Shown in pieces: positions 1,891 through 19,629 of a stretch of 25,202 bases of DNA. The DNA lies in the IMG/VR virus record IMGVR_UViG_3300011013_000084, positions 1-25,202 of that record; one strand, written 5' to 3'. The position numbers and the translations under genes are program-made. Below the pieces are notes generated by a model. It did no database searches and was not told the DNA's origin. It was given only the letters and a program-made list of their open reading frames with translations. This DNA comes from a virus. Every line of letters begins with the position of its first letter. The first letter of the stretch is position 1.

Positions 1891-2664
1891 TTATCCCCTG
1901 ACAACTTCTAAAATATCAATAACGTTTTTATCAACCATTTTAAGTTTATTAATTCTATCTCTAGCATTTTTACAATATTCTTCTGAAATATCGAATCCTA
2001 TATAATTTCTAAATGTTTCTTTCGCCATAAAAGGTGTTGTCCCACTTCCACACATTGGATCAAAAACTAAATCACCTTCATTACTCCATGTCAAAATATT
2101 ATCTTTTGCTAATTTTTCAGGAAAAACCGCAGGATGACCTGTTTTTTTATTAAAACTTGTAGTATATTTCCATATATTATTTCTGGGAGAAGTGTTAGGA
2201 ACTGGTGGAACTTTGCCATCAAATGAACTTACCCCTGCCCATTTATTAATTTTATCACATAAAAGATTAGCAGTTTTTGGCACACCTTTACTAAAAATAA
2301 ACATGTATTCAAATATTTGTGAATATCTATTTCCGGTTCGTTTAGCAGGAAATGCAGGACTATTTTTTTCATATATCATGGTATCATGAATATTAAATCC
2401 TATTTCTTGAAAATATAATGCCTGACGAAAACTACTACCGCTTTCACTATTGTTTATAACAGCATCACCAACAACCCATACTACTACACCACCCGGTGCA
2501 GTAATATTAAATAAACCATCAATTACTGCTTTGTAGTCAAATTCGTAACCATTGTACTCGCGTAAATTATCATAAGGTGGAGATGTTACAGTTAAATCTA
2601 CTAAAACATCCATATTTTTCATTAAATCTACTGCATTACCATGATATATGGTATTAATATTCAT
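1891..2664 (-). CDS. DNA methyltransferase, SPPY type (N6-adenine or N4-cytosine), 257 aa
   Basis: Transfers a methyl group from S-adenosylmethionine to an exocyclic amino group in DNA. The catalytic motif IV is TSPPY (residues 27-31). The AdoMet-binding motif I is FDPMCGSGTT (about 201-210), with GFD shortly after. Motif IV before motif I is the beta-class order. SPPY leaves N4-cytosine versus N6-adenine open. The ATG at 2664 is preferred over the ATG at 2673: it overlaps the upstream stop as ATGA and has AAGGA 8 nt before it, whereas the upstream ATG overlaps that Shine-Dalgarno. The gene before it encodes a PD-(D/E)XK nuclease, so this may be half of a restriction-modification-like pair, or it may protect phage DNA from host restriction. 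Confidence 0.9.
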   Translation of the reverse strand: MNINTIYHGNAVDLMKNMDVLVDLTVTSPPYDNLREYNGYEFDYKAVIDGLFNITAPGGVVVWVVGDAVINNSESGSSFRQALYFQEIGFNIHDTMIYEKNSPAFPAKRTGNRYSQIFEYMFIFSKGVPKTANLLCDKINKWAGVSSFDGKVPPVPNTSPRNNIWKYTTSFNKKTGHPAVFPEKLAKDNILTWSNEGDLVFDPMCGSGTTPFMAKETFRNYIGFDISEEYCKNARDRINKLKMVDKNVIDILEVVRG

Positions 2665-3146
2665 GTTATCCATCCTTCGTGTATAGGTGATTCAAATTCG
2701 TCAATTCCAAAACATATTTTTATGGGATTTGAAAAATCTTTAGTTTCTTCTTGTAATTCTTTGAATTTATTTATGATAAATAACCTCATACCATCACCAT
2801 TGAATGGACCTAAAAAAACCAACACACCTTTTGATACACCATTACCAGAAAACTCTAATACATCACTAAAGTTTTCATTTACATTTTTTGTTGTTATATC
2901 CTTCAAGGTAGAATATGTTCCTTCTAATTTTTCATCTACTGTTCCACTGGTCATTTGTCTTTTGATTTCTATGACTACATTATTATATGTTAATGCATCA
3001 ACATTAACTCGTTTTTTAAAAAACCCAAATTTACCCACTAAATCTTTTTGTGGCATGTATTTAATATTATGATTAGCAAGACTTTCATATATTAAGTGTT
3101 CACCACATTTGCCTGATTCATTCGCGTTATTTGCTTTTTTGTTCAT
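2661..3146 (-). CDS. PD-(D/E)XK-superfamily nuclease, small (161 aa)
   Basis: The protein shows a compact restriction-nuclease core: E16 in an early helix (GEHL), D50 (VNVDAL) and E60-x-K62 (VIEIK), then TSGTVDEKL. This E...D...ExK layout is that of PD-(D/E)XK nucleases, which use Mg2+ to cut DNA. No recognition domain is obvious. Its stop overlaps the methyltransferase start by four bases (ATGA), implying translational coupling. Its own start overlaps the preceding gene by 20 nt. Likely roles are a restriction partner of the methyltransferase, a Holliday-junction or repair nuclease, or a host-DNA degrader; the sequence does not choose between them. Confidence 0.65.
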   Translation of the reverse strand: MNKKANNANESGKCGEHLIYESLANHNIKYMPQKDLVGKFGFFKKRVNVDALTYNNVVIEIKRQMTSGTVDEKLEGTYSTLKDITTKNVNENFSDVLEFSGNGVSKGVLVFLGPFNGDGMRLFIINKFKELQEETKDFSNPIKICFGIDEFESPIHEGWIT

Positions 3147-3450
3147 ATATCATGTCTTTTAAAATTGATTGTGGTTGAATTTCTTCAGGTTTAATATTAA
3201 GACCCGGTTTTTCATTAAGTACGATTTTTGGTTTTTTTCCATTAGTACGGGGAATAATTTCAGTCGTCCATGTTGATTGATTGAATTTTTTTAGACACAT
3301 CAAATTAAGATTTTTGAAAACCATTATTTGCCATGGATCTAAATTTTTTTCATTTAATTTAAAGAAAAACAATAAATCCGACCAGTCACAAAGATTTATA
3401 TATGGTAAACCTTTACATAAAATATTTTTTATTTTTTCAGGTAATTGCAT
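3127..3450 (-). CDS. Hypothetical protein (107 aa)
   Basis: No family is recognised. The first half is mixed hydrophobic with a WSDLLFFFKLN segment and a Trp-Gln; the second half is Pro/Lys-rich and probably extended. It is the first gene after the sigma70-type promoter at 3481-3509, with a leader of about 24 nt and no strong Shine-Dalgarno. Its end overlaps the nuclease start by 20 nt, so it belongs to the same transcript as the nuclease and methyltransferase. A partner or regulator of those two is possible from position alone. Confidence 0.6.
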   Translation of the reverse strand: MQLPEKIKNILCKGLPYINLCDWSDLLFFFKLNEKNLDPWQIMVFKNLNLMCLKKFNQSTWTTEIIPRTNGKKPKIVLNEKPGLNIKPEEIQPQSILKDMIYEQKSK

Positions 3451-3480
3451 GTTTTTACAAAATTTTATTTAGATAGTAAT

Positions 3481-3509
3481 ACTATAGCAAATTTTGTGTT
3501 ACATGTCAA
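3481..3509 (-). promoter_or_regulatory. Extended sigma70 promoter for the nuclease/methyltransferase unit
   Basis: Leftward TTGACA (3509-3504), a 17-bp spacer and TATAGT (3486-3481), with TG one base before the -10 (extended -10). It starts immediately after the resolvase stop codon. The predicted +1 is near 3474, 24 nt before the ATG at 3450. The TTGACATGT core is shared with the tRNA promoter. Confidence 0.8.
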
Positions 3510-3510
3510 A

Positions 3511-3987
3511 TTACATTTGAGATATCCAGAAAGAGTCTGTTAGATCATAAATTCCCGTTGACTTTTTAGCACCGGTAGCTTCAAATGCTTTTAATACATC
3601 TGCTGGCAAGGCATTTTTCATTTTTTCTTTATCAGCTTTTCCATCGCCCGTAGCTTTTAATTTACATGCACGGGGTGTAATTATTGTTGGTGTAACATAA
3701 TCAGCTTGTATTATTTTACAAAATATAACTGCTTGTAAGCCAGCCAAATCTCTAGTACTATTGGAATTCGTCATGCCAAATGGCAAACCTTCTATGATAA
3801 TTTTATTAGGTTTATATTGGGTTATTATTGTTACAATTTCATGGGCAATAAATTCCATTCTATGAAATTTTGTTTCGAAGTCATCTTTATTTGTCTTTAG
3901 ATGTTTATAAAATATTAATTTTTTATTTTCGTCAGTTATTACTATACCTGTAATTCCTAAAGCTTGATCTATTCCCATGTTTAACAT
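3511..3987 (-). CDS. RuvC-like Holliday-junction resolvase (158 aa)
   Basis: An RNase H-fold endonuclease expected to cut branched DNA during recombination and before packaging. The four acidic positions of the family are visible: D7 in MGIDQALGITG, E66 in IIIEGLPFG, and D148/D151 in YDLTDSFWI. Between them is the GDGKADKEKM segment typical of RuvC. Length (158 aa against about 170 for bacterial RuvC) is normal. M1 and M4 are both possible starts and neither has a clear Shine-Dalgarno. T4 uses endonuclease VII instead, so this is a different solution to the same task. Confidence 0.85.
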   Translation of the reverse strand: MLNMGIDQALGITGIVITDENKKLIFYKHLKTNKDDFETKFHRMEFIAHEIVTIITQYKPNKIIIEGLPFGMTNSNSTRDLAGLQAVIFCKIIQADYVTPTIITPRACKLKATGDGKADKEKMKNALPADVLKAFEATGAKKSTGIYDLTDSFWISQM

Positions 3988-4010
3988 GAAAGTATTTAGG
4001 TTTTATTTTG

Positions 4011-4289
4011 TTATGTGTTCCATTTTTTGTTAAATTCTAATTTACATTCCCACCTTGGTTTACCAATAATTATATTAATTTTTTGTTTACATTGTGTAGG
4101 TAACCATTTTGATTTTCCTATAAGTGGATATTTGACCAATTTTTCTGTTTTCATTTTTGTAAATGGTAATGTTATTTGTAACATTCGTATCATAGTAAAT
4201 TCGTCAGATTTCACTAATGAAAGTAAAATCCATGCATTTTCCGTACTTTTTTGACCTAAATCTCTAATATCTTTATGAAAAAGTTTCAT
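4011..4289 (-). CDS. Hypothetical protein (92 aa)
   Basis: No family is recognised. It is a basic, soluble-looking protein with a helical first half (MKLFHKDIRDLG...) and a C-terminal part rich in Lys, Trp and beta-forming residues; WECKLEFNKKW near the end may form a strand pair. Its ATG overlaps the stop of the preceding gene as ATGA, so the two are translationally coupled. 23 nt separate it from the resolvase. Confidence 0.6.
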   Translation of the reverse strand: MKLFHKDIRDLGQKSTENAWILLSLVKSDEFTMIRMLQITLPFTKMKTEKLVKYPLIGKSKWLPTQCKQKINIIIGKPRWECKLEFNKKWNT

Positions 4290-4861
4290 TTTTGTAAAAT
4301 TTTTGATAATAATTCACGTAATCCAAATCTCCATCGTGGTTTTTTATGGAACAAATAGTAATGAGCATCGCTGGTTTCATGCCCTAATGTGTTAATTTGT
4401 TCCATTTCTTCATATTTAAATTCTTTTTGAATTTTTCTAACTAATGCTTTTAGTAGTGTTTCGTGTCGTCGTTTACCCATTCCTGAATGGTGACTATTAC
4501 CCGAAATTGTGAAAGATATAAGATTAGGTTTATTTTTAATAATATATTGTCGCAACTTGTTGATTACTGTGGACATAACTTCAAGTCCATGTTTGGATGT
4601 CCGTTTACCATAGTAATTTTTATTTAATATAAATCTTATATCAGCACCATCAACTTGTATTTCTTGTTCATTTGTATCTTTTAATGCTGTATACTTAACA
4701 GGATCGATGTAATTGACTGTATCTTTAATGTAAATTTTATATTCATCACCGCCACTATCAGAAAATTGACTAACTTGTGTTTTTTCACCTTTTTGTGTGT
4801 CTTCTATATCAGGCAAGTCTTCTGTATCACGTGGTCTGTCAAATAATTCTTTAATAAACAT
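4286..4861 (-). CDS. Hypothetical protein (191 aa), possible acetyltransferase-like C-terminal half
   Basis: It begins with MFIKELFDR, an opening seen in many T4-type phage proteins, then has an acidic, Asp/Glu-rich linker to about residue 40. The second half contains a predicted strand ending in SFTISGNSHHSG, a helix rich in Arg/Lys (KRRHETLLKALVRKI) and a strand with YYLFHKK. This order is reminiscent of phage proteins annotated as putative acetyltransferases, but no cofactor-binding motif is certain, so the function stays open. It has an AAAGGA Shine-Dalgarno and starts one nt after the preceding stop. Confidence 0.6.
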   Translation of the reverse strand: MFIKELFDRPRDTEDLPDIEDTQKGEKTQVSQFSDSGGDEYKIYIKDTVNYIDPVKYTALKDTNEQEIQVDGADIRFILNKNYYGKRTSKHGLEVMSTVINKLRQYIIKNKPNLISFTISGNSHHSGMGKRRHETLLKALVRKIQKEFKYEEMEQINTLGHETSDAHYYLFHKKPRWRFGLRELLSKILQK

Positions 4862-4862
4862 G

Positions 4863-5462
4863 TTAATCCTTTATTACGATTTCTTTTTCAAAATAAATTC
4901 CATTTAAGAAGTCCATTTTTTTACTAAAGTCCGCCGGTGTATATTCATTTGATGGTTTAGATTCTGACAAAATCCCCATTCTTTGATATGCTTCAGATAA
5001 CATTTCGCTACAAAATAGGCTTGTTAAATCTTCTTCGTTATCACCTAACCATCCATCATATGCAGATTTAATAAGTTCAATAGTACTTTCTTCATAATGT
5101 TTATCTTTAGATTCTGCTCTGAAATCTCTTAATTTTTCTTCTGTTTCTCTGGTTGGTGTATAATGTAGTTTTCTTAATGCTACGCCACCATCATAAGATA
5201 ATACTCTATCTCTAAGAAGTGTCATTTGAACACCTTTTTTCAATTTACCAGACTCTATATCTTTCTTGTCGCCAAGTTGTGTAGATTCCCATAAAACATT
5301 CATATCCCACTCTTTTATATATACAACCATCCCTAGATGTGACCATTTGCTGCGTGTAAAAAATTTTATTGCTTCACTTATAGCACCTTTTCCAGAGAAC
5401 AAAATTATATCACCGGTTTTTAATTCATCCCTAATATCATCATATTTATTCATCGCTGACAT
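4863..5462 (-). CDS. YiiX-like permuted NlpC/P60 hydrolase (199 aa)
   Basis: Permuted papain-fold hydrolase of the YiiX/YebB (peptidase C92) type. Visible hallmarks are LKTGDIILF (GD at 17-18), the catalytic His in WSHLGMVV (H42), E59 in the WESTQ strand, and the catalytic Cys near the C-terminus in SLFCSEML (C151). Known relatives hydrolyse amide or thioester bonds in cell-wall or lipid substrates; the phage target is unknown. There is no signal peptide. The start is fixed by an AGGAGG Shine-Dalgarno 5 nt before the ATG. It is the first leftward gene, divergent from the gp13 homologue. An AATAAATA box (5509-5502), one mismatch from the T4 late box, might drive it. Confidence 0.8.
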   Translation of the reverse strand: MSAMNKYDDIRDELKTGDIILFSGKGAISEAIKFFTRSKWSHLGMVVYIKEWDMNVLWESTQLGDKKDIESGKLKKGVQMTLLRDRVLSYDGGVALRKLHYTPTRETEEKLRDFRAESKDKHYEESTIELIKSAYDGWLGDNEEDLTSLFCSEMLSEAYQRMGILSESKPSNEYTPADFSKKMDFLNGIYFEKEIVIKD

Positions 5463-5491: not shown

Positions 5492-5499
5492 TATAAATA
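5492..5499 (+). promoter_or_regulatory. T4-type late promoter box before the gp13 homologue
   Basis: TATAAATA, the T4 late (gp55-dependent) -10 element, lies 48 nt before the ATG at 5548. Predicted +1 is about 5505, giving a leader of about 43 nt that contains AAGGA (5538-5542) as ribosome-binding site. Chance matches occur in such A+T-rich DNA, but position and neighbour fit. Confidence 0.7.
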
Positions 5500-5547
5500 C
5501 TTATTTATTAGTAATACTGATAAATATTAAAAATATAAAGGAATAAT

Positions 5548-8526
5548 ATGTCAACATTTGATAGTTTTGCAGATGCACCCAACCAAATAAGAACCGAAGG
5601 ACAAGAAATAACCATTCGGTTTGATAGAACTGGTCCTAATACAGGTAGGATTTCTTGGAATATACCTACGCCCGCACAAGGTTGTTCTGCTGATACACAA
5701 GCATATAATGGTATTGTAATAACATTAGATAATAAAAATGTTTCTTTAGAGACAAATCCTTCAAATGGAACTGTCTATATACCAGACCCAACCGGCGATA
5801 GAGATTTACATGCAGGTGATTCTATAAGTACAGCATTGGTTATTGGTGCCTTTTATGATGATAAAGAAACTACTATATTAGATATTACTGGACTAAATCC
5901 TAATACGCCATATTATATATCAGGATATGCAGTTGATGATCAATTTCGTTATCATACAGAAGGTGTACATGCATATAGCCTCGATTATGGTACTTTAAAA
6001 ACACCAGATTCCGCAGGATCACAACTTATTTGTTTTAATAATGGCGATGGGGTTTTAGGAACTGATGCAACAGGTTTAGTTGCTGGTTTTGTTTATGAAT
6101 TCGATATTTGTATAGATGGTGAATGTTATAAGGTTGTTTTAAACGGTACTGACGCCGCAACATATGATGACCTTATAGAAGCTATCAATAATGCATTTGA
6201 ACGCCTGTCAGGGGCTTTAGAAAGCCCTGTACCACCAAATACTGGAGGGTATTGGTGGGATAATGATAACCAAAAATTATTTTTATGGAATGGTTCACAA
6301 CATGTCGAAGTACCTGTTATTGTCGAACTAACCGATCCAACAATTCCCGCAATTGGTGATTATTGGTATCAACCCGTAACACAAGTATTATCTATATGGA
6401 TGGGGTCACCCGGTGGATGGGTCATTGTTCCTAATGTAATTAGATTTTGTAAGGATCCACTTAAACCTGCATGTGATGATTATTGGTATCAACCTGGTTC
6501 ACCATCTATGGCATTTATGTGGAATGGTAGTGTTTGGTGTCCATTAAACCTTTTTGACCAAGAAAATGATCCTGCTATTGCTGTACCACCTATTTGTGGT
6601 TCATACTGGTATAATCCAAATACGGGTATTGTAAGTTGTTGGAATGTAGAAAATTGTATATGGGTAGATGCTACTAATGATGTAGTTTTTTGGCCTACAG
6701 ATCCTAATAATTTACCACAAGGTACATATTGGTATGATACTGACGATAGTAATTTATATATTAGAAAGTTAACTGGTTCACCACCAACATTGCCTTTAGA
6801 ATGGATATTGATACCAGAATCTAATATTTCATCTGATCCATGTGTTCCACCATTAATAATTTCTCCTACGGAACCTTCACCTACTTTAGCACACATGTTA
6901 TGGTTTGATACTACTAATGAAAAATTATTTCAGCGTGATATTACTAATACAATTTGGGTAGAATTGCCAGTATTACTATTTGATAGAGATCCAACAATTC
7001 GTGAATCTTGTGATTATTGGTGGGATTCTGATAGTCCTAATGATCTTTATACATGGTCTGTAAATAATAATATATGGGTTTTAGTAGCTTCTTTTATTCA
7101 AAGCCCTATAGACCCTGCACTAGATCCCATATTAACCGAAGCTGCATGGTATAAACCATCTACAATGGAATTGCGTATTTGGACTGGAACCGGATGGGAG
7201 TTAGTTAAATTTATTAATCATCCAACCGATCCTACTATTGTTGCTGTGGGTGATATATGGTTTGATGATACTAATAATACATGGTATGAATGGTCAGGTA
7301 GTGCATGGGTAGTATTTAACCCAGTGGATTCAGTAACAGATCCAACAATGTTACCTTTAAACTCACTCTGGTACGATACAACAAATAATTTATTATTTAC
7401 ATGGAATGGTGTTTCATGGTTGCCAGTAGCTTTTTCAACTGTACCATTTACACCAATAAAAGGTGAATTGTGGTATGACAGTATTAATAATAATTTAATG
7501 ATGTGGAATGGTACTGCATGGGTAATTGCAATACCACTTGCTATGGCAGAATTGAATGCAGATGGGCATATAGTAATTACTAGTTCAACAGTAGGAAGTT
7601 TTTCTGATATTGATTTGTTATCAAGAACATGTACAGAATCATTAAAATCACCATTTTGGCAAGATACACCATTAAACGGAATTATTCAAACTAGAGTTGA
7701 GGGTATTGATGGAAATGAAGGGGAACCTTCATATGCACAGGTTGGTGTCGGTGACGATGGAACGCCAGATGAAAGACGTGAGTTAGCTGATAGTATACGT
7801 GCACAATTAGGATATCCTGTTGTACAAGTAGAATTAACTAAATATCAAATGGACACTGCAATAACTGGTGGTTTGGAAGAATTGCGTCGTCGTAGTTCTA
7901 TTGGTTTCCGTCGTGGATTTGCTGTATTGAATATAAAACCGGGCATCCAGCGATACGAGTTGACTAATAAAAGCATGGAATACAATCAAATTGGTGCTAT
8001 CAGTGGTTTAACTAGACTTTCATCTGCGTTTTTAACATCAGCACATGGATCAGGTATTTTTGGACAAGTTGTATTACAACACTTATACAATATGGGTACA
8101 TTTGATCTTTTGTCATTTCACATGGTGAATGAGTACACAGCGCAGTTAGAACATTTATTTGCTAGTAGATTAGCATTCAATTTTAATGAAACCAGTAGGG
8201 TATTGACTATTCATAGTGTATTTTCGCAAGCAGAAACTATATTGATGGATGTTGCATTAGAAAGAACAGAGCAAGATTTATTAAATGATCGTTATGCCAA
8301 AGTTTGGATTGAGCAATGGGCTTTAAGTGAATGTAGATTGATGTTATCACATATCCGTGGTAAATATGCATCTTTGCCCGGTGCAGGTGGTGGCGTAGCC
8401 TTAGATGCAGCCGAATTGGGTGCTAGGGCAGATGCCGAAAAAGAACGTCTGTATTCGGAATTAGATGATTATGTAGTTAATAATGTGGAAGAATGGGGAA
8501 TAGGTGCTGAATTCACTTGGGGTTGA
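5548..8526 (+). CDS. Neck protein gp13 homologue with Fn3-like and Trp-rich repeat extension (992 aa)
   Basis: The last third (about residues 737-992) matches the T4/cyanophage gp13 neck-protein layout: an LGYPVVQVELTK opening helix, a YNMGTFDLLSFHMVNEYTAQLEHLF stretch (read in parts), strands, and a helical end with IRGKYASLPGAGG. In T4, gp13 closes filled heads together with gp14 and joins them to tails. Ahead of it are an Fn3-like domain (about 20-150) and 11 repeats of 35-45 aa (about 226-661), each with a (Y/L)W(Y/F) strand, an LxxW strand and a final aromatic. T4 gp13 is only about 310 aa, so this is a large N-terminal extension. It probably displays binding modules at the neck. The late promoter and AAGGA Shine-Dalgarno support the start. 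The last 58 bp overlap the opposing endonuclease gene. Confidence 0.8.
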   Translation: MSTFDSFADAPNQIRTEGQEITIRFDRTGPNTGRISWNIPTPAQGCSADTQAYNGIVITLDNKNVSLETNPSNGTVYIPDPTGDRDLHAGDSISTALVIGAFYDDKETTILDITGLNPNTPYYISGYAVDDQFRYHTEGVHAYSLDYGTLKTPDSAGSQLICFNNGDGVLGTDATGLVAGFVYEFDICIDGECYKVVLNGTDAATYDDLIEAINNAFERLSGALESPVPPNTGGYWWDNDNQKLFLWNGSQHVEVPVIVELTDPTIPAIGDYWYQPVTQVLSIWMGSPGGWVIVPNVIRFCKDPLKPACDDYWYQPGSPSMAFMWNGSVWCPLNLFDQENDPAIAVPPICGSYWYNPNTGIVSCWNVENCIWVDATNDVVFWPTDPNNLPQGTYWYDTDDSNLYIRKLTGSPPTLPLEWILIPESNISSDPCVPPLIISPTEPSPTLAHMLWFDTTNEKLFQRDITNTIWVELPVLLFDRDPTIRESCDYWWDSDSPNDLYTWSVNNNIWVLVASFIQSPIDPALDPILTEAAWYKPSTMELRIWTGTGWELVKFINHPTDPTIVAVGDIWFDDTNNTWYEWSGSAWVVFNPVDSVTDPTMLPLNSLWYDTTNNLLFTWNGVSWLPVAFSTVPFTPIKGELWYDSINNNLMMWNGTAWVIAIPLAMAELNADGHIVITSSTVGSFSDIDLLSRTCTESLKSPFWQDTPLNGIIQTRVEGIDGNEGEPSYAQVGVGDDGTPDERRELADSIRAQLGYPVVQVELTKYQMDTAITGGLEELRRRSSIGFRRGFAVLNIKPGIQRYELTNKSMEYNQIGAISGLTRLSSAFLTSAHGSGIFGQVVLQHLYNMGTFDLLSFHMVNEYTAQLEHLFASRLAFNFNETSRVLTIHSVFSQAETILMDVALERTEQDLLNDRYAKVWIEQWALSECRLMLSHIRGKYASLPGAGGGVALDAAELGARADAEKERLYSELDDYVVNNVEEWGIGAEFTWG
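6224..7540 (+). repeat. Eleven Trp-rich coding repeats in the gp13 homologue
   Basis: Each unit reads roughly as DPT...P..GD-Y/L-W-Y-D...N-x-L-x-x-W-N/x-G-x-x-W-V. Units differ in length (about 35-45 aa) and are diverged at DNA level, so this is an old protein repeat rather than a recent DNA duplication. A single related copy is visible near the C-terminus of the gp14 homologue (about residues 490-526). The pattern suggests small beta modules strung along a fibre. Confidence 0.75.
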
Positions 8527-10307
8527 TGCCATTCCCATACTGAATTACCACAATCATATACTCTTAACCAATTATTATTTAACATGTTTTTATGTGCAGA
8601 TAATAAAGGATTAAAATCATCCAAAAACATATGTTGTTTATGTTTTTGTGCTTGATATCTACTTTTTATTATTGAATTTTTTACATAAATAAAATTGGGT
8701 GGTGATGTTCTGATTTTTTTAAAATTTAATTTTTCGTATATAGTCCCCGTACCATATTGTAAATCACAATAAGAAATAATTGATGTTGGCATATATTTTT
8801 TTAAAAAATATATGAATAATTTACTGGCACCACCAATCACATTAGTATTTAATTCTGAAGAGAATCGTAATAATTCATATTCATAATCAGATTTGAATCT
8901 AGGTGTACCAAAAGTCATTACTAAAACTAAATTATCATTATAAAAGAGACCTATTCGTATTTTAGATACACTATTTCCTTGTAAATGTGTTCTGTTTAAA
9001 AATAGTTTACTTTCTTTATATGATATTTCTTTTATATTACATTTTCTTGCAAATATTTTAGTATTTTTACCCAACATTGATTTTAATCGGGATTTAACTA
9101 TGTTTGTTTTAAATGTCCATTCATGTTCAAAAATATGTATTAATTGAATATCTTGTTCATGACATAATAAAGTTTTGTCAATATGATATGATTTTTCTTT
9201 AAACAATTCAGAGTGCCAATATAAACCGTTGTATTCAATAGCAATTTTTTTATTAGGCAAATATATATCTATCTCTTTTGGTGGTATTATAGTTTTTGTA
9301 TTTGTTAGAATATTAGATTCTATTCCTTTAATAAATTCATTGATTTCTTTTTCAGCAAAAGAATAACTATAATAATGTGCTTTTATATTATGCTTTTTTA
9401 AATATGTTACTGCTGTTGACGGTGCAATTTTTAAATCATATGCAATTTGTGTTAAGGATTTTTGTTTTGTTATATGTTCATTATACATCCATTTTTTATC
9501 ATTTAGAAATGACATAATGGATAACATATGTTTTTGGTTTTCGCATTCAACACCATATCGCTCAATGTTGGTTTGTTTGATTTTATCTTGACATTCTTTG
9601 GTTTTGGAATAACTGTCAACACCATATCGTTCAATGCTAGTTTGTTTGATTTTATCTTGGCATTCTTTGTTTTTTGAATAATGATTTATGCCATATCGCT
9701 CAATGTTGGTTTGTTTGATTTTATCTTGACATTCTTTGGTTTTGGAATAATTGTCAACACCATATCGTTCAATGTTAGTTTGTTTGACTTTATCTTTTAT
9801 ATCTTTTGATTTAAATACATTATCAACACCATATCGTTCAATGCTAGTTTGTTTGACTTTATCTTTAAATTTTTTGGTTTTGGAAAAACTATCAACGCCA
9901 TATCGTTCGAGATTTGTTTTTCTTGTTTTATCTTTAAATTTTTTGGTTTTGGAAAAACTATCAACGCCATATCGTTCGAGATTTGTTTTTCTTGCTTTTT
10001 TTTGTGCTACAGAATTATGTGAACATGCATTACATAGCTGGGCATAATTGTTTTTATATGTGTTAAATTTTATATATGTAGTACATTGTTTGCAAGTAAT
10101 TTTTGTATTAATATCATTGATAACACAAAATATTCGTTCTTTTATTTTAGCATTTTCGTTTAAAAATGTTGTACAATTTATTATTTTATTTATTTTTTCG
10201 TGATTAATTTTGGTTTGTAAATAAATGTTTAATCGTGGTGAAGATGATATCTCTAATGCTATATTTTTTGTTTCTGTAGAATACATTGTTTTTTTAGACA
10301 AAATCAT
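8469..10307 (-). CDS. Homing-endonuclease-like protein: zinc cluster, 23-aa repeats, HTH, Vsr-like nuclease, acyltransferase-like domain (612 aa)
   Basis: Domains in order: CxxC...CxxC zinc cluster (C72, C75, C92, C95); seven 23-aa repeats built on TNIERYGVD...KxK (about 106-267); helix-turn-helix (about 283-312, SLTQIAYDLKIAPSTAV); Vsr-like/EDxHD-type nuclease core (about 318-405: E in SFAEKE, D in EIDIYLP, IEYNGLYWHSE, later H); then a domain with VMTFGTPRF, GGASKLF and YEKLNF that resembles GNAT acyltransferases (about 410-560). Relatives end at CGNSVW; this one runs on for about 19 residues antisense to the 3' end of the gp13 gene. Its ATG lies inside the last codons of the preceding gene (14-nt overlap), so it probably shares that gene's promoter. 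Expected to cut DNA at a site lacking the element. Confidence 0.8.
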   Translation of the reverse strand: MILSKKTMYSTETKNIALEISSSPRLNIYLQTKINHEKINKIINCTTFLNENAKIKERIFCVINDINTKITCKQCTTYIKFNTYKNNYAQLCNACSHNSVAQKKARKTNLERYGVDSFSKTKKFKDKTRKTNLERYGVDSFSKTKKFKDKVKQTSIERYGVDNVFKSKDIKDKVKQTNIERYGVDNYSKTKECQDKIKQTNIERYGINHYSKNKECQDKIKQTSIERYGVDSYSKTKECQDKIKQTNIERYGVECENQKHMLSIMSFLNDKKWMYNEHITKQKSLTQIAYDLKIAPSTAVTYLKKHNIKAHYYSYSFAEKEINEFIKGIESNILTNTKTIIPPKEIDIYLPNKKIAIEYNGLYWHSELFKEKSYHIDKTLLCHEQDIQLIHIFEHEWTFKTNIVKSRLKSMLGKNTKIFARKCNIKEISYKESKLFLNRTHLQGNSVSKIRIGLFYNDNLVLVMTFGTPRFKSDYEYELLRFSSELNTNVIGGASKLFIYFLKKYMPTSIISYCDLQYGTGTIYEKLNFKKIRTSPPNFIYVKNSIIKSRYQAQKHKQHMFLDDFNPLLSAHKNMLNNNWLRVYDCGNSVWEWHQPQVNSAPIPHSSTLLTT

Positions 10308-11385
10308 GTTCCCAAATAGTAATTAAATTATAACCTAATTTTTTTATGATTTGTTCACGTTTCATTGTTTTTATATATAAACTACCGGCAGATTCATCAG
10401 AAAATGGATGACATTGTTCATTTTCGTTAAATAATTTTAAATTTCCGTGAAATTTATCACCGTAAAACTCATAAATTGTATTATTGGCTTCACAATATCC
10501 ATCAGCTTTGTATTTTGTTCCTGGTATTGAATATTCACCATCATTCTCTGCATGTTGAATGAATATTCCTTCAGTATTCATTATTGAGTCCAACCAAGAT
10601 ATTGCCTTTTGTGAATAGTGTGGTGTATTAAAACATTGGGGACATCCATTTCTATCACATGTATGTGATTTGGGTCGCTGAAAGAATTCTCCATGTATTG
10701 GGCATATAATTTTTATTTTTTTACAGGAATGTGTATATTGGACTGGATATGTGTATTTTTCACCATGTATTAAACATGCATCATTTAAAAATTGGTCATG
10801 TGTTTTTGTTATTTTAGCAATTTCTATTTTACATTTTGAACAGCCTTTTCCTGACAAATGACTACCAGGGTTTTGTTTAAATTCTCCATGTATTGGACAT
10901 GTAATTCTAATAGACGTTATAGAATTCACATATTTATCAGGATAATCATATTTGTTATTATGAACAGTATTAGCTTTATTAATAAATTCTTTTGTTGTTA
11001 ATTTTTTTGATTTATTACATTTAGGACATCCACTTTTTCCTAAGTGTGAACTGGAACGTTGAAAGAATTCACCGTGTTTTGGGCATATAATTCTTATTTT
11101 ATCTTTGTTACAAATGTACTCATCGGGATAATCATATTTGTTATTATGGGCTTTATTTGCTTTATTAATAAATTCCTTTGTTGTTAATGTTTTTGTTTTA
11201 TTGCAGTTTTTACAACCTCTTCCAGATGTATGACCATTAGGACTTTGATAAAATTCACCATGTATAGGGCAAATTATTCTAATGGGTGTTATAGCATTCA
11301 CATATTCATCAGGATAAGTGTACTTATCACCATGTATATTTTTACATTTTTCAAGAAATTCAGTATTTGTTAGTTTTTTAGACAT
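10294..11385 (-). CDS. Homing-endonuclease-like protein with four zinc-ribbon repeats and Vsr-like nuclease (363 aa)
   Basis: Four repeats of about 60 aa, each with a (N/D)KYxYPxxY segment, CPxHGEF, a conserved H and GCxxC, resemble the DUF723-type zinc-binding repeat found in phage endonucleases. The C-terminal 100 residues contain YKADGY, YEFYGDKFHGN and LITIWEHDF, a Vsr-like/EDxHD nuclease core with candidate D, E and H. It lacks the acyltransferase-like domain of its neighbours. The ATG at 11385 is chosen because AGTGAGAG precedes it; the longer frame back to 11433 uses TTG and falls in the -35 box. The promoter at 11405-11433 drives it leftward, against the structural genes. It overlaps the downstream endonuclease gene by 14 nt. 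Confidence 0.8.
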   Translation of the reverse strand: MSKKLTNTEFLEKCKNIHGDKYTYPDEYVNAITPIRIICPIHGEFYQSPNGHTSGRGCKNCNKTKTLTTKEFINKANKAHNNKYDYPDEYICNKDKIRIICPKHGEFFQRSSSHLGKSGCPKCNKSKKLTTKEFINKANTVHNNKYDYPDKYVNSITSIRITCPIHGEFKQNPGSHLSGKGCSKCKIEIAKITKTHDQFLNDACLIHGEKYTYPVQYTHSCKKIKIICPIHGEFFQRPKSHTCDRNGCPQCFNTPHYSQKAISWLDSIMNTEGIFIQHAENDGEYSIPGTKYKADGYCEANNTIYEFYGDKFHGNLKLFNENEQCHPFSDESAGSLYIKTMKREQIIKKLGYNLITIWEHDFV

Positions 11386-11404
11386 TTTTTCACTCTCACT
11401 TAAT

Positions 11405-11433
11405 AGTATATACTGAAATTTATATAATGTCAA
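11405..11433 (-). promoter_or_regulatory. Sigma70-type promoter for the leftward endonuclease pair
   Basis: Leftward TTGACA (11433-11428), a 17-bp spacer and TATACT (11410-11405). The predicted +1 is near 11398, 13 nt before the ATG at 11385. It is back to back with the rightward TATAAATA box at 11439-11446. Confidence 0.8.
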
Positions 11434-11451: not shown

Positions 11452-11649
11452 ATGAAACTTTATGAACTAGATACTAATCGCACAATTGCTAATCGGAATA
11501 TGACTCCTGGTGAAAATAGGGATTCAGAAATACAGTTACCTAGTGAATTTTGCCGTGATAGAACATGGTGTGAAAAAGGTTCAAAAGGTAAAAAAATCCG
11601 CAAAGATGAATCTAAAATTGGTAGACCTATAAGAAAGGGGCGTATTTGA
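11452..11649 (+). CDS. Small basic protein upstream of the gp14 homologue (65 aa)
   Basis: A short, highly charged protein opening with MKLYELD, a start common in T4-type phage proteins. It has an Arg/Asn-rich middle, two Cys (about residues 34 and 40) and a Lys/Arg-rich tail. No family is recognised. The ATG has no Shine-Dalgarno and lies directly behind the late-promoter box, so translation would have to be leaderless; the next ATG (11500) is an alternative. Its TGA overlaps the ATG of the gp14 homologue (TGATG), suggesting coupling. A small nucleic-acid-binding or structural accessory protein is possible. Confidence 0.55.
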   Translation: MKLYELDTNRTIANRNMTPGENRDSEIQLPSEFCRDRTWCEKGSKGKKIRKDESKIGRPIRKGRI

Positions 11650-13328
11650 TGAGCACAAAAGAAGTTTGCGAGGGAACGTATGTACCCGGTGATTTGCCAG
11701 CTAATAATACGCCTACTAATCCATTAGACCCTAATTGCACCGTACAACCTGTAACAAGTTTGCCTGGCCCGACTTCTTGTCCTACGCCCTCTACTTCAAC
11801 GTGTAGTGATTTTCAATTAACAAAATTTGATGATACATGTTTTATTAATGGGGTAATTGAAGAGCATTTAAATATTGGTGCGGCAGACATGTTGGTATAT
11901 AAGTTATTAGGCGTACATGAACAAGGCGAGTTAATTGATTTAGTTGGGAATGGCAATCCTATTTCTAGTGGAGCGGCAATAAATTTCCCTGCGAAGAATG
12001 CTTTTACTACATTTGTTACTGAATGGAGAACTTTACAAAAGGGACAAGGAATTATAGATTCTGGATACATTGGATATGATTTTGGTTCGATAAAGTTACC
12101 TAATGGTCGCGAACGTTATGGGGTTGATACATCAGTTAACAATAGTATTTCTACTATTAAAATTAAGCAGGGAAACAATTCACAGAACCGCGTAACGCGT
12201 GCAAGAATAGAGAGATCATTTGATGGTTTTAAATGGTTTGGTGCCGCTGTAATTGAATTGCCAGATGATAATTGTTTAAATACGATTCATTTTCGTGCTT
12301 CTGTAGCTAATCGATATTGGAGAATACGTCCAATAGCATTTAATGGTAGTTCTAATGATTACTGGGCAGTACAAGCCTTAGAAATGATGGATTATTCATT
12401 AACACAGTTAAATAATATAGAAGATCATATATGGTTAGAAAATCGCAATCGAGATTATTCTGAAGAGGCTGTTTTATTAAAAGGGACTTATGATTTGTTA
12501 GATTCTACAACTGATTTGAGTCGATTTGGTATTGAATTACCTAATCAACAAATGTATATTCAAATGTCGTTTAGTGCAATGGTTGCTGGTTTAGGACGCC
12601 CAGTGGTTATTGGTGATATTTTTGAAGTTCCTAGTGAAACTCAATATAATAGTAAATTAGAGCCTATTAAAAAGTATATGGAAATAACAGACGTGGGCTG
12701 GAGTACAGAGGGATTTACACCCGGATGGATTCCGACAATTTTGAGATTAGTTGCAATGCCTATGTTGGGAACACCTGAAACGGCTGACATATTTGGTGGT
12801 TTAGAAGAGACGCCTGATGAATCTGGTTTAGTAAAATATGGTTTGTTAGATTTAGATGGTATTCGTGGTGAACAACCACAAGTACAAGATTTATCTGAAA
12901 CTACACATGCAATACAGTCAGAAGCTATAACTAATACTCCTGAATTGGGATCTGATATGGCCGATATACAGGAGTTTGATCAACATCAACGTGATGTGGT
13001 AAAAGAACAAACTGGAGCTAATTTGGGCATAATAAGTTCTAACAAAAATCAATTATATGTAGAAGACGCTCTACCTCCGAACCACTTACCTTACACAGAA
13101 GCAGATGAATTCCCTGATTTACCTAAAAATGGTGATTATCATAGGCTTACATATAATCAAGTAGGTACTAATATAGCACCACGATTGTTTAGATGGTCAA
13201 ATGCTAAAGATAGATGGATATGGATAGAAACAGATTTGAGGAAGGCACATAATGAGCAAAAGCCTATATTAAGTGAATTTTTGGCTAGTTCTAATAGAGT
13301 TTCATCAGAAAAAGTAGGCAAAAAGTAG
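11649..13328 (+). CDS. Neck protein gp14 homologue with F5/8C-like domain (559 aa)
   Basis: In T4, gp14 forms the neck ring that joins head and tail. The match is the core at about residues 262-385: ENRNRDY, YDLLDSTTDLSRFG, a strand pair, GDIFEVP, and KYMEITDVGW. T4 gp14 is about 256 aa. The extra parts are a Cys/Pro/Thr-rich N-terminus (1-55); an F5/8C (discoidin-like) domain at about 85-250 (WRTLQKG, YIGYDFG, IERSFDGFKWFG, YWRIRPIAFNG), a fold that usually binds sugars; and a C-terminal Trp-rich module (about 490-526) like the gp13 repeats. The start at 11649 is set by AGGGG 9 nt upstream and the TGATG overlap; the frame also opens at TTG 11646. Confidence 0.78.
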   Translation: MSTKEVCEGTYVPGDLPANNTPTNPLDPNCTVQPVTSLPGPTSCPTPSTSTCSDFQLTKFDDTCFINGVIEEHLNIGAADMLVYKLLGVHEQGELIDLVGNGNPISSGAAINFPAKNAFTTFVTEWRTLQKGQGIIDSGYIGYDFGSIKLPNGRERYGVDTSVNNSISTIKIKQGNNSQNRVTRARIERSFDGFKWFGAAVIELPDDNCLNTIHFRASVANRYWRIRPIAFNGSSNDYWAVQALEMMDYSLTQLNNIEDHIWLENRNRDYSEEAVLLKGTYDLLDSTTDLSRFGIELPNQQMYIQMSFSAMVAGLGRPVVIGDIFEVPSETQYNSKLEPIKKYMEITDVGWSTEGFTPGWIPTILRLVAMPMLGTPETADIFGGLEETPDESGLVKYGLLDLDGIRGEQPQVQDLSETTHAIQSEAITNTPELGSDMADIQEFDQHQRDVVKEQTGANLGIISSNKNQLYVEDALPPNHLPYTEADEFPDLPKNGDYHRLTYNQVGTNIAPRLFRWSNAKDRWIWIETDLRKAHNEQKPILSEFLASSNRVSSEKVGKK

Positions 13329-13350: not shown

Positions 13351-15465
13351 ATGTTTTTAGAAACAGAATTACGATTGATTGGTGTTATCACAAAATCTGG
13401 AAGACTTAGCAAAAATGCCAAAAAAATATTAAGAAAAAATCCGGTGCTGAATGATTATATTTTGTGTAATTCACCACAACATGCAGATTCTTTAAAAGAA
13501 CAAATTTTTTGTATTATTAATAATATAAAAAGTCAACCTATTTGTGACAGTATTAAATGTACAAACACTATAAAATTTAATGAACGATTAAGAAAATATA
13601 GTTTATGTTGTTCTGTTTCATGTATAGGATTCTCTAAAAGTGTGGAACAAAAAAGAAAAACCACATGTAAAAATAATTATGGTGTTGATGTACCATTAAA
13701 ATCTAAAAAAATTAGAGATAAGGTGAAAACTACCAATTTAGAGAGATATGGGGTCGAACATGTATTGCAATCAAAAGAAGTTAAAGATAAAATCAAAAAA
13801 ACTAATTTAGAGAGATATGGTGTTGATAATACATTTAAATCTAAAAAAATTAGAGATAAGGTAAAGCTGACCAACTTAGAAAAATACGGCGTTGATAATC
13901 CATTAAAATCGACAGAGATACGTGAAAAATCTAAACAAACCAATTTGAAAAGATATGGTGTCGAAATTCCTTCACAATCAAAAGAAGTTAAAGAAAAATC
14001 TAAACAAACCAATTTAGAAAGATATGGTGTTGATAGTTATACGATGTCAGATGACTTTAAAGAAAAATCTAAACAAACCAATTTAGAAAGATATGGCGTT
14101 TATAGTTATTCGATGTCAGATGACTTCAAAGAAAAATCTAAACAAACCAATTTAGAAAGATATGGCGTCGAATATGTATTTCAATCAAAAGAAGTTAAAG
14201 ATAAAATCAAAAAAACCAACTTAGACAAGTATGGTGTCGAAAATGTATTTCAATCAGAAGAAATTAGAGCAAAGGTAAAACAAACCAACTTAGATAAATA
14301 TGGTGTTGATAATACATTTAAATCGACAGAAATTAAAGATAAAATAAAACAAATCAACTTAGAAAGATATGGTGTTGATAGTTATATGATGTCAGATGAC
14401 TTCAAAGAAAAATCTAAACAAACCAATTTAGAAAGATATGGCGTTTATAGTTATTCCCAAAAACATATACCAGAAGATGTATTAAATAAAATGGAGAATG
14501 ATAAATGGTTATATATTAAACATGTTTTAGAAAAAAGAAATTTATTAAATATATCACAGATTTTAGGAATTTCTGATACTACGGTAAAGCGGCATTTAGT
14601 TATACATGATATACCACAATTTTATTATAGTTATTCTAATGGCGAACGTGAAGTAGCACAATTTTTAATAGATGCAGGGGTTTATATTTCGCGAAATGAT
14701 AGAACAATAATAAAGCCATTAGAGTTAGATATAGTAATTCCTGACAAAAAAATAGCTATAGAATATTGTGGTTTATATTGGCATTCTGAATTTTTCAAAG
14801 ATAAAACATATCATTTTAATAAAATGAAGATGTGCAATGAGGCGGGATACAGATTAATAACTATTTTCGCGGATGAATGGATTTATAGAACGAATCAGGT
14901 TCGGTCTGCATTATTATCTAAACTTGGAATTGATAACAGACCAAGAATTTATGCTAGAAAAACTGATATTATAATACCTAATAAACAACAAAAGAAAGAT
15001 TTTTTTGATAAGTATCATATACAAGGTGATGCTAATAGTAGTATAGAGATAGGTTTATTATATCAAAATGAAATTGTTGCTATAATGTTGTTTACCAAAA
15101 ATAAAACTTCATATATTCTAACACGATATGCTACTAAAAATCGTGTTGTTGGTGGTTTTAGTAAAATATTATCACATTTTAAAAAAATATATACACCTAA
15201 AAAAATAATTAGTTTTGCAGATAGGAGATGGTCAGAAGCAAACATGTATTTGTCTACTGGTTGGGTTATAGATAGTATATTAGCACCAGATTATAAATAT
15301 GTAATAGGCGATAAGCGTTTGCATAAATTTGGTTTTAGACATAAACATTTAAAAAATAAATTATCTGTATATGATGAAAAATTAACTGAGCACGAAAATA
15401 TGATAAATGCTAAAAAATATAGAATTTATGATTGTGGACTTATAAGGTTAAAATATGGCATTTAA
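13351..15465 (+). CDS. Homing-endonuclease-like protein with twelve 23-aa repeats (704 aa)
   Basis: Domains in order: Cys cluster (CDSIKC...CCSVSC, about residues 66-92); twelve 23-aa repeats with YGV cores (about 104-370); helix-turn-helix (about 395-425, NISQILGISDTTVKRHL); Vsr-like nuclease core (about 430-515: GEREV, ELDIVIP, IEYCGLYWHSEF, H after it); acyltransferase-like domain (about 530-690: HIQGDA, IGLLYQNEIVAIM, VVGGFSKIL, ISFADRRW). IEYCG, GGFSK and the ending YDCGLIRLKYG define a subgroup shared with the gene at 24057-25076. It has no Shine-Dalgarno; the extended -10 promoter places +1 on the ATG. Its last 11 bases overlap the gp15 homologue start. It lies 22 nt after the gp14 stop. 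Confidence 0.8.
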   Translation: MFLETELRLIGVITKSGRLSKNAKKILRKNPVLNDYILCNSPQHADSLKEQIFCIINNIKSQPICDSIKCTNTIKFNERLRKYSLCCSVSCIGFSKSVEQKRKTTCKNNYGVDVPLKSKKIRDKVKTTNLERYGVEHVLQSKEVKDKIKKTNLERYGVDNTFKSKKIRDKVKLTNLEKYGVDNPLKSTEIREKSKQTNLKRYGVEIPSQSKEVKEKSKQTNLERYGVDSYTMSDDFKEKSKQTNLERYGVYSYSMSDDFKEKSKQTNLERYGVEYVFQSKEVKDKIKKTNLDKYGVENVFQSEEIRAKVKQTNLDKYGVDNTFKSTEIKDKIKQINLERYGVDSYMMSDDFKEKSKQTNLERYGVYSYSQKHIPEDVLNKMENDKWLYIKHVLEKRNLLNISQILGISDTTVKRHLVIHDIPQFYYSYSNGEREVAQFLIDAGVYISRNDRTIIKPLELDIVIPDKKIAIEYCGLYWHSEFFKDKTYHFNKMKMCNEAGYRLITIFADEWIYRTNQVRSALLSKLGIDNRPRIYARKTDIIIPNKQQKKDFFDKYHIQGDANSSIEIGLLYQNEIVAIMLFTKNKTSYILTRYATKNRVVGGFSKILSHFKKIYTPKKIISFADRRWSEANMYLSTGWVIDSILAPDYKYVIGDKRLHKFGFRHKHLKNKLSVYDEKLTEHENMINAKKYRIYDCGLIRLKYGI
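13660..14458 (+). repeat. 69-bp coding tandem repeat (12 units)
   Basis: A strict 69-bp period encodes 23-aa units. TNLERYGV and a closing KxK are nearly invariant, and the six to ten residues between them vary in recognisable classes (DSYxMSDDF, EHVLQSKEV, DNTFKSKKI). Some unit pairs are almost identical at DNA level, showing recent unit duplication or conversion. Confidence 0.85.
15292..15299 (+). promoter_or_regulatory. Possible late promoter box inside the endonuclease gene
   Basis: TATAAATA lies within codons for Tyr-Lys-Tyr, about 155 nt before the gp15 homologue ATG. It could supply late transcription to gp15, which otherwise has no promoter of its own. Because it also encodes protein and such boxes arise by chance in A+T-rich DNA, the call is weak. 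Confidence 0.3.
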
Positions 15466-16246
15466 TAATCATTATTATGATGAACAAATAAAGAAGTATA
15501 TAATTCAGTTTATGATGATATTTGGTAATATGAAGGTTAAAATAGGTAAAAATGAACGTGAGCCAACCTCTCATTTAATATCTGTTCCGATATTTTTTGG
15601 TAATAAAGATAGGGTAGTAGCACACATACTTAATGATAACACACAAAATAAACTTTTGCGATTGCCTGCTATGAGTTGTGTCATTCAAAATATAGAAATG
15701 GCACCAGAAATGCGTAAAGGAATAGGGAATGTACGTAGACAAACATTTGCACCTGTTGGTGGTGTAGTCCCCGATGATGTAAAAGTTGTAAAACAACAAA
15801 TGCCAATTCCATATTCTATGACGGTAGAATTAGCAATATGGACATCTAATATGGACGAACGATATCAAATATTAGAACAAATATTAATGTTATTTGATCC
15901 TATTGTTCAGATTCAAAAAAATGATGCATTATTTGATTGGACGAAATTGAGTATGATAGAACTATTGTCAGTTAATTATGAAGATAATTATCCTATAGGA
16001 ACTGATACCAGAATAATTGTATCCAATTTGACATTTAAGTTTCCGATATGGATTTCGGCACCAGCTAATGTAAAAGATGATTTTGTGCAAGATATTTATG
16101 CAAGAATCGGTGCAGTTGATTTTGATTCTATGAGTTCAGAAGAAATTATCGCTGATCTTGATCAACAAGGAGTTCATTATAATCTTATAGCTTCACTTGA
16201 TTCTATTAATATACCAGAATTTGGTACTGGTTCACCACAAACTTAA
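15455..16246 (+). CDS. Tail sheath terminator/stabiliser, gp15 homologue (263 aa)
   Basis: In T4, gp15 caps the finished sheath and tube and docks the tail to the neck. The similarity is in layout: an N-terminal aromatic stretch (NNHYYDEQIKKYI), then an FGNMKVK strand, a mid-protein MPIPYSMTVELAIWTSNMDERYQILEQIL segment (read in parts; T4 has IKMIYELSIFTRYEDDMFQIVEQIL in the same place), and a FKFPIWI strand. Length (263 against 272 aa) is normal. AAGG 7 nt upstream supports the ATG, which lies inside the last codons of the endonuclease gene (11-nt overlap). Its stop is 8 nt from the stop of a convergent endonuclease gene. Confidence 0.85.
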   Translation: MAFNNHYYDEQIKKYIIQFMMIFGNMKVKIGKNEREPTSHLISVPIFFGNKDRVVAHILNDNTQNKLLRLPAMSCVIQNIEMAPEMRKGIGNVRRQTFAPVGGVVPDDVKVVKQQMPIPYSMTVELAIWTSNMDERYQILEQILMLFDPIVQIQKNDALFDWTKLSMIELLSVNYEDNYPIGTDTRIIVSNLTFKFPIWISAPANVKDDFVQDIYARIGAVDFDSMSSEEIIADLDQQGVHYNLIASLDSINIPEFGTGSPQT

Positions 16247-16254
16247 AAGGTTTG

Positions 16255-17826
16255 TCAATGTTTTGAATATGTCCATACGGAATTACCACAATCCCAAAAC
16301 CTATTCCATCCATTATTCTGCATGTTTTCCCATTCCGTAAGATTTTCATCAAAAATAGGTAATAATTTTTTTAGTTTGTGTTTTTGGAATTTTATTCGAG
16401 AATAAACATTCAAACAATCATTTTTATTAAAATACCAATAATTTGGCTTGGTTATGTGTGATATTTCAAAATCTAATTTCTTATATACATTTCCTGTACC
16501 ATATCGGATATCACAATAACTTATTACGGATTTAGGCTTGTGCGTTTTTGTGAAATGTTTGAATAATTTACTAGCACCACCTACTATGGTATGATCTAAT
16601 AAAGAACAAAATCTTAATAATTCGTAATCATGCATTTTATTAAATCTAGGTTCCCCAAATGTCATTAAACTTACTAAAACACCTTTATTATATAATCCAT
16701 AAGAATATTTACATCCAACATTACCTTGTATATGATTATTGTTAAGGAATGTTTTAGAATCTATTTTAGATACCAATTTAATAATACAATTTCTAGCATA
16801 TATTTTAGTCGTATTATTTAATAATGAGTTTATTCTCGACTTTATTATATCCTGTTTAAGTAACCATTCATGTTCGAAAATATGTATTAATCTAATTCCT
16901 TTTTCATTACATAACTTCGTTTTATTTAAGTGATAATCTTTATTTTTGCCAAATAATTCAGAATGCCAGTATAATCCATTATATTCAATCGCAAGATTTA
17001 ATTCGGTAATTAATATATCTAATTCATAAGGTGGTATAATGTTCCTGCAATTAGATTGTATATTTAAATTTGTTGCTTCACATATTTTTCGCAATTGAAT
17101 TTCAGATGTAGAACTTTTATTTGGCTTATAAAAATTATGTTTTTTAATATACAAATATACAGTAGAATGCGAAATATTTAATTCTTTGGATATATCTAAT
17201 ATAGACATGTTTTCAGTTACATATTTATCTTTTAACCATTGTGTATTATTTAATTTGTCTAGTGTTTTTTGAGTTATATTTTTATATGAAAAATGCTCTA
17301 CGCCATATTTAGATAAATTGGTCTTTTTTATTTTATCTTTGACTTCATGTGATTGTAATACACAATTTGTTCCATATTTTTTTTGTGATGACTTCTTTTT
17401 CTGATTTTTTATTTCTTCTGATTGTGAAGGATTTTCTACACCATATCGCTTTATATTGCTTTGTATTATTTGCTTTTTTATTCGCTTAGATTGAAATACA
17501 TTCTTAACACCATATTTTTCGATATTTGTTTTTTCAACTTTGGCTAGACGATGTGCATCTTTATTTGCACATGTTTTTGAACAATAAGTTCTATACATCT
17601 TCTCCTTCCATCTAGTATGTGTTTTATTACAATGAAGACATAGCGGCGGATTTTTAGTGTTTAAAATATGCCATATTCGTTGACGTAACGGGGCTGTGTT
17701 TAGATATGCAGTCTCTTTTATTATATCTTTATATAATTGTCCATGTATTGTTATTATCGGGCGTAAGTCTTCTGTAAGGTCAATTTCATTTAATTGGTCT
17801 TTAATATTCACTTTAAATATGTCCAT
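16255..17826 (-). CDS. Homing-endonuclease-like protein with four 23-aa repeats (523 aa)
   Basis: Domains in order: zinc cluster (CLHC...CSKTC, about residues 63-87); four YGV/YGT repeats (about 97-185); helix-turn-helix (about 205-232, SILDISKELNISHSTVYLYI); Vsr-like nuclease core (about 240-325: SEIQLRKI, ELDILITE, IEYNGLYWHSE, YHLNKT); acyltransferase-like domain (about 340-480: HIQGNVG, VSLMTFGEPRF, VGGASKLF, YGTGNVYKKLDF); ending CGNSVWTYSKH. Its ATG lies in another frame inside the last codons of the preceding endonuclease gene (19-nt overlap), so the pair is one transcript. The last 121 bp match the 3' end of that neighbour with one mismatch. Confidence 0.8.
   Translation of the reverse strand: MDIFKVNIKDQLNEIDLTEDLRPIITIHGQLYKDIIKETAYLNTAPLRQRIWHILNTKNPPLCLHCNKTHTRWKEKMYRTYCSKTCANKDAHRLAKVEKTNIEKYGVKNVFQSKRIKKQIIQSNIKRYGVENPSQSEEIKNQKKKSSQKKYGTNCVLQSHEVKDKIKKTNLSKYGVEHFSYKNITQKTLDKLNNTQWLKDKYVTENMSILDISKELNISHSTVYLYIKKHNFYKPNKSSTSEIQLRKICEATNLNIQSNCRNIIPPYELDILITELNLAIEYNGLYWHSELFGKNKDYHLNKTKLCNEKGIRLIHIFEHEWLLKQDIIKSRINSLLNNTTKIYARNCIIKLVSKIDSKTFLNNNHIQGNVGCKYSYGLYNKGVLVSLMTFGEPRFNKMHDYELLRFCSLLDHTIVGGASKLFKHFTKTHKPKSVISYCDIRYGTGNVYKKLDFEISHITKPNYWYFNKNDCLNVYSRIKFQKHKLKKLLPIFDENLTEWENMQNNGWNRFWDCGNSVWTYSKH
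16266..16386. repeat. 121-bp direct repeat, copy 1 (endonuclease 3' end)
   Basis: Matches 17816-17936 with one mismatch, offset 1550 bp. It encodes the C-terminal 40 or so residues (KLLPIFDENLTEWEN...CGNSVW) of the endonuclease gene at 16255-17826. Confidence 0.9.
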
Positions 17827-19546: not shown

Positions 19547-19629
19547 TAATTGAAGCCAGTTCAGTTTAGAGTTTACTGAATCCACGGCACAAACAAAACT
19601 CGATGGAAACATATATAAGGAGATTTCCA

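Follow-up and report, generated by a model that had tools for sequence, protein, structure and literature searches.

A T4 gp13-type neck adaptor with a probable built-in arm of fibre-type modules in jumbo myoviruses of the XacN1 group

What would a phage neck adaptor do with an N-terminal extension of 734 residues? The question is raised by a plus-strand gene (5548-8526) in the window, the 25,202-nucleotide stretch analyzed here, which comprises positions 1 to 25,202 of the IMG/VR virus record IMGVR_UViG_3300011013_000084. The gene starts with an ATG, ahead of which a ribosome-binding site can be read (AAAGGA, 5537-5542, plus strand), ends with a stop codon within the same range, and translates to 992 amino acids. 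The whole protein is matched by PHROG 211, 'head-tail adaptor Ad2' (E 6e-207, residues 1-979; profile length 976), so that long forms are evidently already inside this family, but only under the name 'Ad2'. The protein is a neck adaptor of the T4 gp13 type, from a jumbo myovirus belonging to the XacN1 group, and probably carries its neck appendage in the adaptor chain itself.

The adaptor portion lies at the C-terminus (residues 735-992; 7750-8523, plus strand). The initial annotation of this DNA had proposed a gp13 neck domain in the last 255 of the 992 residues and had named a lack of profile similarity there as grounds against it. Compared with the PDB by itself, this domain matched T4 gp13 (9mkb, 9lu4; E about 1e-6), so both the identity and the C-terminal position stand, while the length is corrected to 258 residues. 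An AlphaFold2 model made with 49 homologues in the alignment (mean pLDDT 84, pTM 0.46, the latter value meaning that the model speaks to single domains and not to their mutual arrangement) has the gp13 fold order of helix pair, swing domain and helix pair, and it fits T4 gp13 both by Foldseek (1.2e-9) and by VIA (Z 13.7, rmsd 4.1 over 117 residues). In the alignment, most of T4 gp13 residues 190-239 (domain III) are represented by gaps in the window protein and in all RaK2-like gp13 proteins. The latter (e.g., those of RaK2, 121Q, PA5oct, Atu_ph07, and SCTP-2) have an orthologous neck domain but are 249-268 amino acids long and lack the extension. Judged by sequence and predicted fold, the window protein has an ordinary neck domain of the gp13/Ad2 type.

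The extension itself has no Pfam match, and the model there consists mostly of strands, without a long helix. An Fn3-like domain had been suggested from the sequence, and the model agrees, since residues 11-148 (5578-5991, plus strand) fit many Fn3 domains at Z 9-10 and approximately 2.2 Å over approximately 91 residues, even though the Pfam fn3 score of the window protein (13.2 bits) is below the cut-off of 25. Weak Pfam fn3 matches occur in 9 of 28 family members, and a literature search for neck proteins together with fibronectin type III returned nothing beyond a siphophage neck-tail complex. This Fn3-fold domain is followed by a small alpha/beta domain (residues 151-226; 5998-6225, plus strand; model strands at 156-163, 182-189, and 192-199, helix at 206-219), by an array of Trp-rich modules (residues 233-666; 6244-7545, plus strand), and, between the array and the neck, by another small domain that is the least conserved of the protein (residues 667-733; 7546-7746, plus strand; model strands at 665-669 and 675-682). 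Neither of the two small domains is matched by Pfam.

The module HMM identified exactly 11 modules, the number originally proposed, of approximately 37-40 residues each (residues 233-269, 270-309, 310-346, 351-391, 392-431, 450-487, 488-528, 532-567, 568-604, 605-637, and 639-666), and every one is modeled as a three-stranded beta-meander. The region spanning residues 227-664 accounts for 34 of the 40 Trp residues in the protein. A search for a known family of the module gave no useful Pfam match, no match among PDB sequences, and fold matches that are weak. The structural matches of Z 2-4 (collagen XV/XVIII trimerisation domain, CBA120 TSP3, the Mtd N-terminus, and JBD30) are largely trimeric fibre domains, and one of 45 family members has a weak Mtd_N match (E 0.14). 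Lectins head the Foldseek list, but with E values of 0.04 or worse and an rmsd of about 20 Å, so a beta-propeller is unsupported and was discarded. Similar modules or arrays are found in minor tail and tail-fibre proteins of other phages, and single modules occur elsewhere in the XacN1 genome (ORF325, which adjoins the baseplate wedges, and the ORF232-237 paralogues). In both sequence and predicted fold, the modules thus resemble phage fibre modules, with which they appear to belong. As a separate observation, XacN1 ORF232-237 (L155 2049-11105) are six tandem paralogues of PHROG 15511 (function unknown) with one Trp-module-like stretch each near residue 90; these are perhaps tail-associated or receptor-binding proteins.

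A fusion of this kind could be an artefact, either because two genes were run together by faulty assembly or read-through or because the neck domain is translated separately from an internal start. A scan of viral contigs with the single protein found no relative, and a three-sequence profile was needed, with which a scan of IMG/VR yielded 80 loci. Taken over all loci, the Fn3 domain and at least four modules are present together in 75 distinct complete proteins, of which nearly all come from IMG/VR; a search for other gp13 homologues with the extension, recommended by the initial annotation, has therefore succeeded. Full-length homologues with the same architecture are present in Xanthomonas phage XacN1 and Stenotrophomonas phages RAS14 and CM1, where they are known only as 'hypothetical protein' (the GenBank label in XacN1 and RAS14) or lack annotation. 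XacN1 ORF268 and the RAS14 protein (WAX21693) align end to end with the window protein at 39% identity and also contain 11 modules. Because the whole architecture is kept in one open frame in approximately 75 distinct proteins, including those of the cultured phages XacN1 and RAS14, the fusion is real and a chance or assembly join is ruled out; the order read from a single sequence as a natural fusion, with the adhesion-type part first and the neck last, is that of the entire phage clade. Separate frames for this region are seen in loci L064, L067, and L079, where two or three overlapping frames, produced by sequencing error or real breakage, take the place of the one long neck gene. Production of a free neck protein from an internal start was also rejected, since no ATG with a ribosome-binding site is present near the neck domain in the window gene, and such a site is seen in 6 of 95 family members. 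With family-wide conservation refuting it, an artefact can be considered extremely improbable.

It is also conceivable that the extension is an assembly aid or a propeptide, cleaved off or left unstructured, and that mature virions lack it. Several head proteins are trimmed by the T4-type prohead protease, which lends this explanation some plausibility. However, prohead proteolysis precedes packaging. T4 gp13 joins after packaging (PMC12270204), and the model of the window protein shows good order along almost the entire chain, making a transient role for the extension very unlikely.

The surroundings of the gene are those expected for a neck protein of a T4-type phage. The order in relatives is capsid protein, small gene, gp13 fusion, gp14-slot gene, gp15, and sheath, with which the window agrees by its PHROG matches: the next structural gene, in the gp14 position, encodes 560 amino acids (11646-13328, plus strand; PHROG 11591), and is followed by the gp15 tail sheath stabiliser (15455-16246, plus strand; PHROG 227 / 11196) and the gp18 tail sheath (19603-21771, plus strand; PHROG 10581 / 23). 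The gp14-slot gene was placed by synteny only, because profile comparison gave no match to T4 gp14, and homology to the latter was rejected as a candidate. It has an extra N-terminal F5/8-type-C-like region (PF00754 scores above the cut-off in the XacN1 orthologue) that is apparently absent from the 364-amino acid Atu_ph07 homologue, and the two adjoining neck genes (the gp13 fusion and the gp14-slot gene) are thus both seen with added surface-type domains.

A T4-type late-promoter-like motif, TATAAATA, is located 56 bp ahead of the start codon of the neck gene (5492-5499, plus strand), and the same motif precedes the fusion gene in 20 of 86 relatives, compared with 2.1 expected by shuffling. 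Within the window, copies on the plus strand at 5492, 11439, 15292, and 19539 lie at most 210 bp upstream of all four plus-strand structural genes, an arrangement reached in none of 2000 shuffles, and over the window as a whole the motif is not enriched. Approximately 45% of the window is taken up by seven HNH / homing-endonuclease-type genes (PHROG 3339 / 559) between and after the neck, sheath-stabiliser, and sheath genes (8469-10307, minus strand; 10294-11433, minus; 13351-15465, plus; 16255-17826, minus; 17808-19499, minus; 21866-23923, plus; 24057-25076, plus), the first of which shares 58 bp with the 3' end of the neck gene. Similar genes occur in relatives at other gaps of the same structural cluster. 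A divergent block on the minus strand (1891-5462) encodes a DNA methylase, a PD-(D/E)XK nuclease, a RuvC-like resolvase, and a C92-type amidase-like gene.

The pattern of conservation also bears on what the extension does. Exactly 11 modules are present in 59 of the 75 proteins, with 8, 9, 10, or 12 in the remainder. Each of the 11 module positions scores 30-47% against the same position in other phages versus approximately 25% against other positions, and since same-position modules are more alike than those at different positions, the array predates the diversification of the group and has seen no later reshuffling. At the sequence level, the modules are positional orthologues with a near-fixed count and no free duplication. 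Mean pairwise identity is 50.3% for the neck and 46.7% for the Fn3 domain, falling to 35% in the array and 27% in the domain ahead of the neck. An Fn3 tip nearly as conserved as the neck, orthologous modules, and a count that is mostly 11 fit a fixed structural arm better than a fast-evolving receptor binder; moreover, a conserved distal tip on an arm whose length hardly varies points to a conserved partner, most likely a part of the virion. The term 'adhesion modules' used in the initial annotation is consequently apt for the likeness to tail-fibre modules but doubtful in the sense of receptor binding.

A model for such an arm is available in phage T4, where collar and whiskers consist of twelve fibritin fibres anchored on as many copies of gp13, with domain III (190-239) of gp13 binding fibritin (PMC12270204). 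The window protein shares with this system the neck domain and the gene neighborhood 13-14-15-18. However, domain III is present in T4 gp13 and lacking here, and the appendage of the window protein is covalent, N-terminal, and composed of beta-meanders and Fn3, whereas T4 fibritin (wac) is a separate coiled-coil protein. No Fibritin_C domain (PF07921) was found in XacN1, RAS14, Atu_ph07, or 121Q by a search that did find the T4 protein. The T4 gene order is wac, 13, 14, 15, 16, 17, 18, and in cyanophage P-RSM6 the gene upstream of 13 encodes a 2538-amino acid protein with an Mtd_N fibre domain; by analogy of place, the extension would occupy the slot directly ahead of 13 that holds a fibre gene in other T4-type phages. 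No sequence kinship of the extension with fibritin or the P-RSM6 upstream fibres was found, nor were Trp modules found in the proteins upstream of 13 in P-RSM6 and S-CAM9. The gp13 of cyanophage S-CAM9 (373 amino acids) was considered as a shorter version of the extension and rejected, because its neck helix begins at about residue 4 and its extra residues are therefore not N-terminal. A decorated collar has also been described for phAPEC6, which has a neck protein of approximately 30 kDa and a collar bearing twelve elongated proteins (PMC7247149).

Based on sequence and predicted structure, the likely role of the extension is that of a covalently built-in neck arm, probably present in 12 copies per virion, in which beta-meander modules of the fibre type lead to an Fn3 tip and which would resemble a whisker or collar, in line with the whiskers or collar fibres proposed in the initial annotation. 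The gp13 domains would form the usual dodecameric ring under the portal, from which twelve arms of fixed length would leave the neck, possibly in bundles of three like those that similar modules form in phage fibres; the weak fold matches to trimeric domains make such trimerisation possible. These arms would act as built-in whiskers or collar struts and stand in for fibritin, which in T4 is a separate protein docked on gp13 domain III. The Fn3 tip would most likely bind a conserved virion partner (the capsid vertex, the sheath, or retracted fibres), with the host surface as the second choice.

If that second choice were correct, the arms would be host-binding adhesins making the first reversible contact with the cell surface, a role implied by the initial annotation. 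Fn3 domains are common among phage surface proteins, and both the Trp-rich modules and the F5/8-C-like region in the next neck gene look like carbohydrate binders. Additionally, XacN1 was reportedly seen by microscopy to have no tail fibres and none were detected in its genome (PMC5852040), so that another adhesin would be useful to this phage. Set against these points are a tip domain that, in widely differing phages, is conserved to about the same degree as the neck and a module number that does not freely expand or contract, as well as the finding that a carbohydrate-binding module at the neck-fibre tip of A-1(L) did not bind the host (PMC10966104). A role in adsorption is accordingly possible but appears unlikely.

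The constancy that speaks against an adhesin is also compatible with an extension that does not project at all, but wraps the neck together with the capsid vertex or upper sheath as a fixed, joint-strengthening collar, like the sheath-like collar of Milano and 7-7-1. The near-constant module number, the positional orthology, and the conserved Fn3 domain would all fit fixed contacts inside the virion, and the XacN1 paper, in which the words 'neck' and 'whisker' are absent, describes no neck whiskers. There is also precedent in the collar sleeve that surrounds the neck of Milano and 7-7-1, beta-rich in Milano. Both this sleeve and the neck fibres of A-1(L) are likewise appendages at the neck; they are, however, separate proteins on 15-fold rings, and no sequence link to the window protein was found. 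The modules are most like fibre modules and unlike the jellyroll collar protein of Milano, no counterpart of which was present among the fold-search matches listed (such a geometry could still apply), and single modules occur in other proteins of the XacN1 genome, including the one next to the baseplate wedges. A wrapped collar is therefore an improbable, if coherent, alternative to the projecting arm.

A quick version of the neck-domain tree, in which T4 sits on a very long branch, contains three groups, i.e., proteins with no extension (RaK2-like and T4), with 2-3 modules (RsoM2USA-like), and with 8-12 modules, for which two changes suffice. The intermediate group takes its name from Ralstonia phage RsoM2USA, whose neck protein ORF401 has 494 amino acids and which is placed with XacN1 on other genes (PMC8504454). 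The module number of ORF401 was deduced from its length, which falls in a size class whose IMG/VR proteins contain Fn3, 2-3 Trp modules, and the neck domain. Six two-module proteins (L090, L102, L107, L108, L112, and L113) are approximately 90-220 residues above the usual 500 owing to insertions inside the extension. Of the four neck-1 classes proposed in 2023, the last (class 4, approximately 310 residues) is T4 gp13 (PMC10491603), and the window protein would extend this scheme beyond its four classes. A more specific proposal, put forward tentatively, is a further neck-1 adaptor class with the neck fibre built in, whose twelve arms, each with an Fn3 tip and mostly 11 fibre-type modules, may be gathered into four whiskers of three and would act as rulers of fixed length between the neck and a conserved virion partner.

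The proposed neck arm leads to a clear prediction for cryo-EM, and a 'hypothetical protein' of jumbo phages infecting plant and clinical bacteria gains a name and a testable role. The series of 0, 2-3, and 8-12 modules shows how such an arm may have grown. Neck proteins set head sealing and whisker attachment, and in these phages the adaptor itself appears to have taken on the function of the whiskers.
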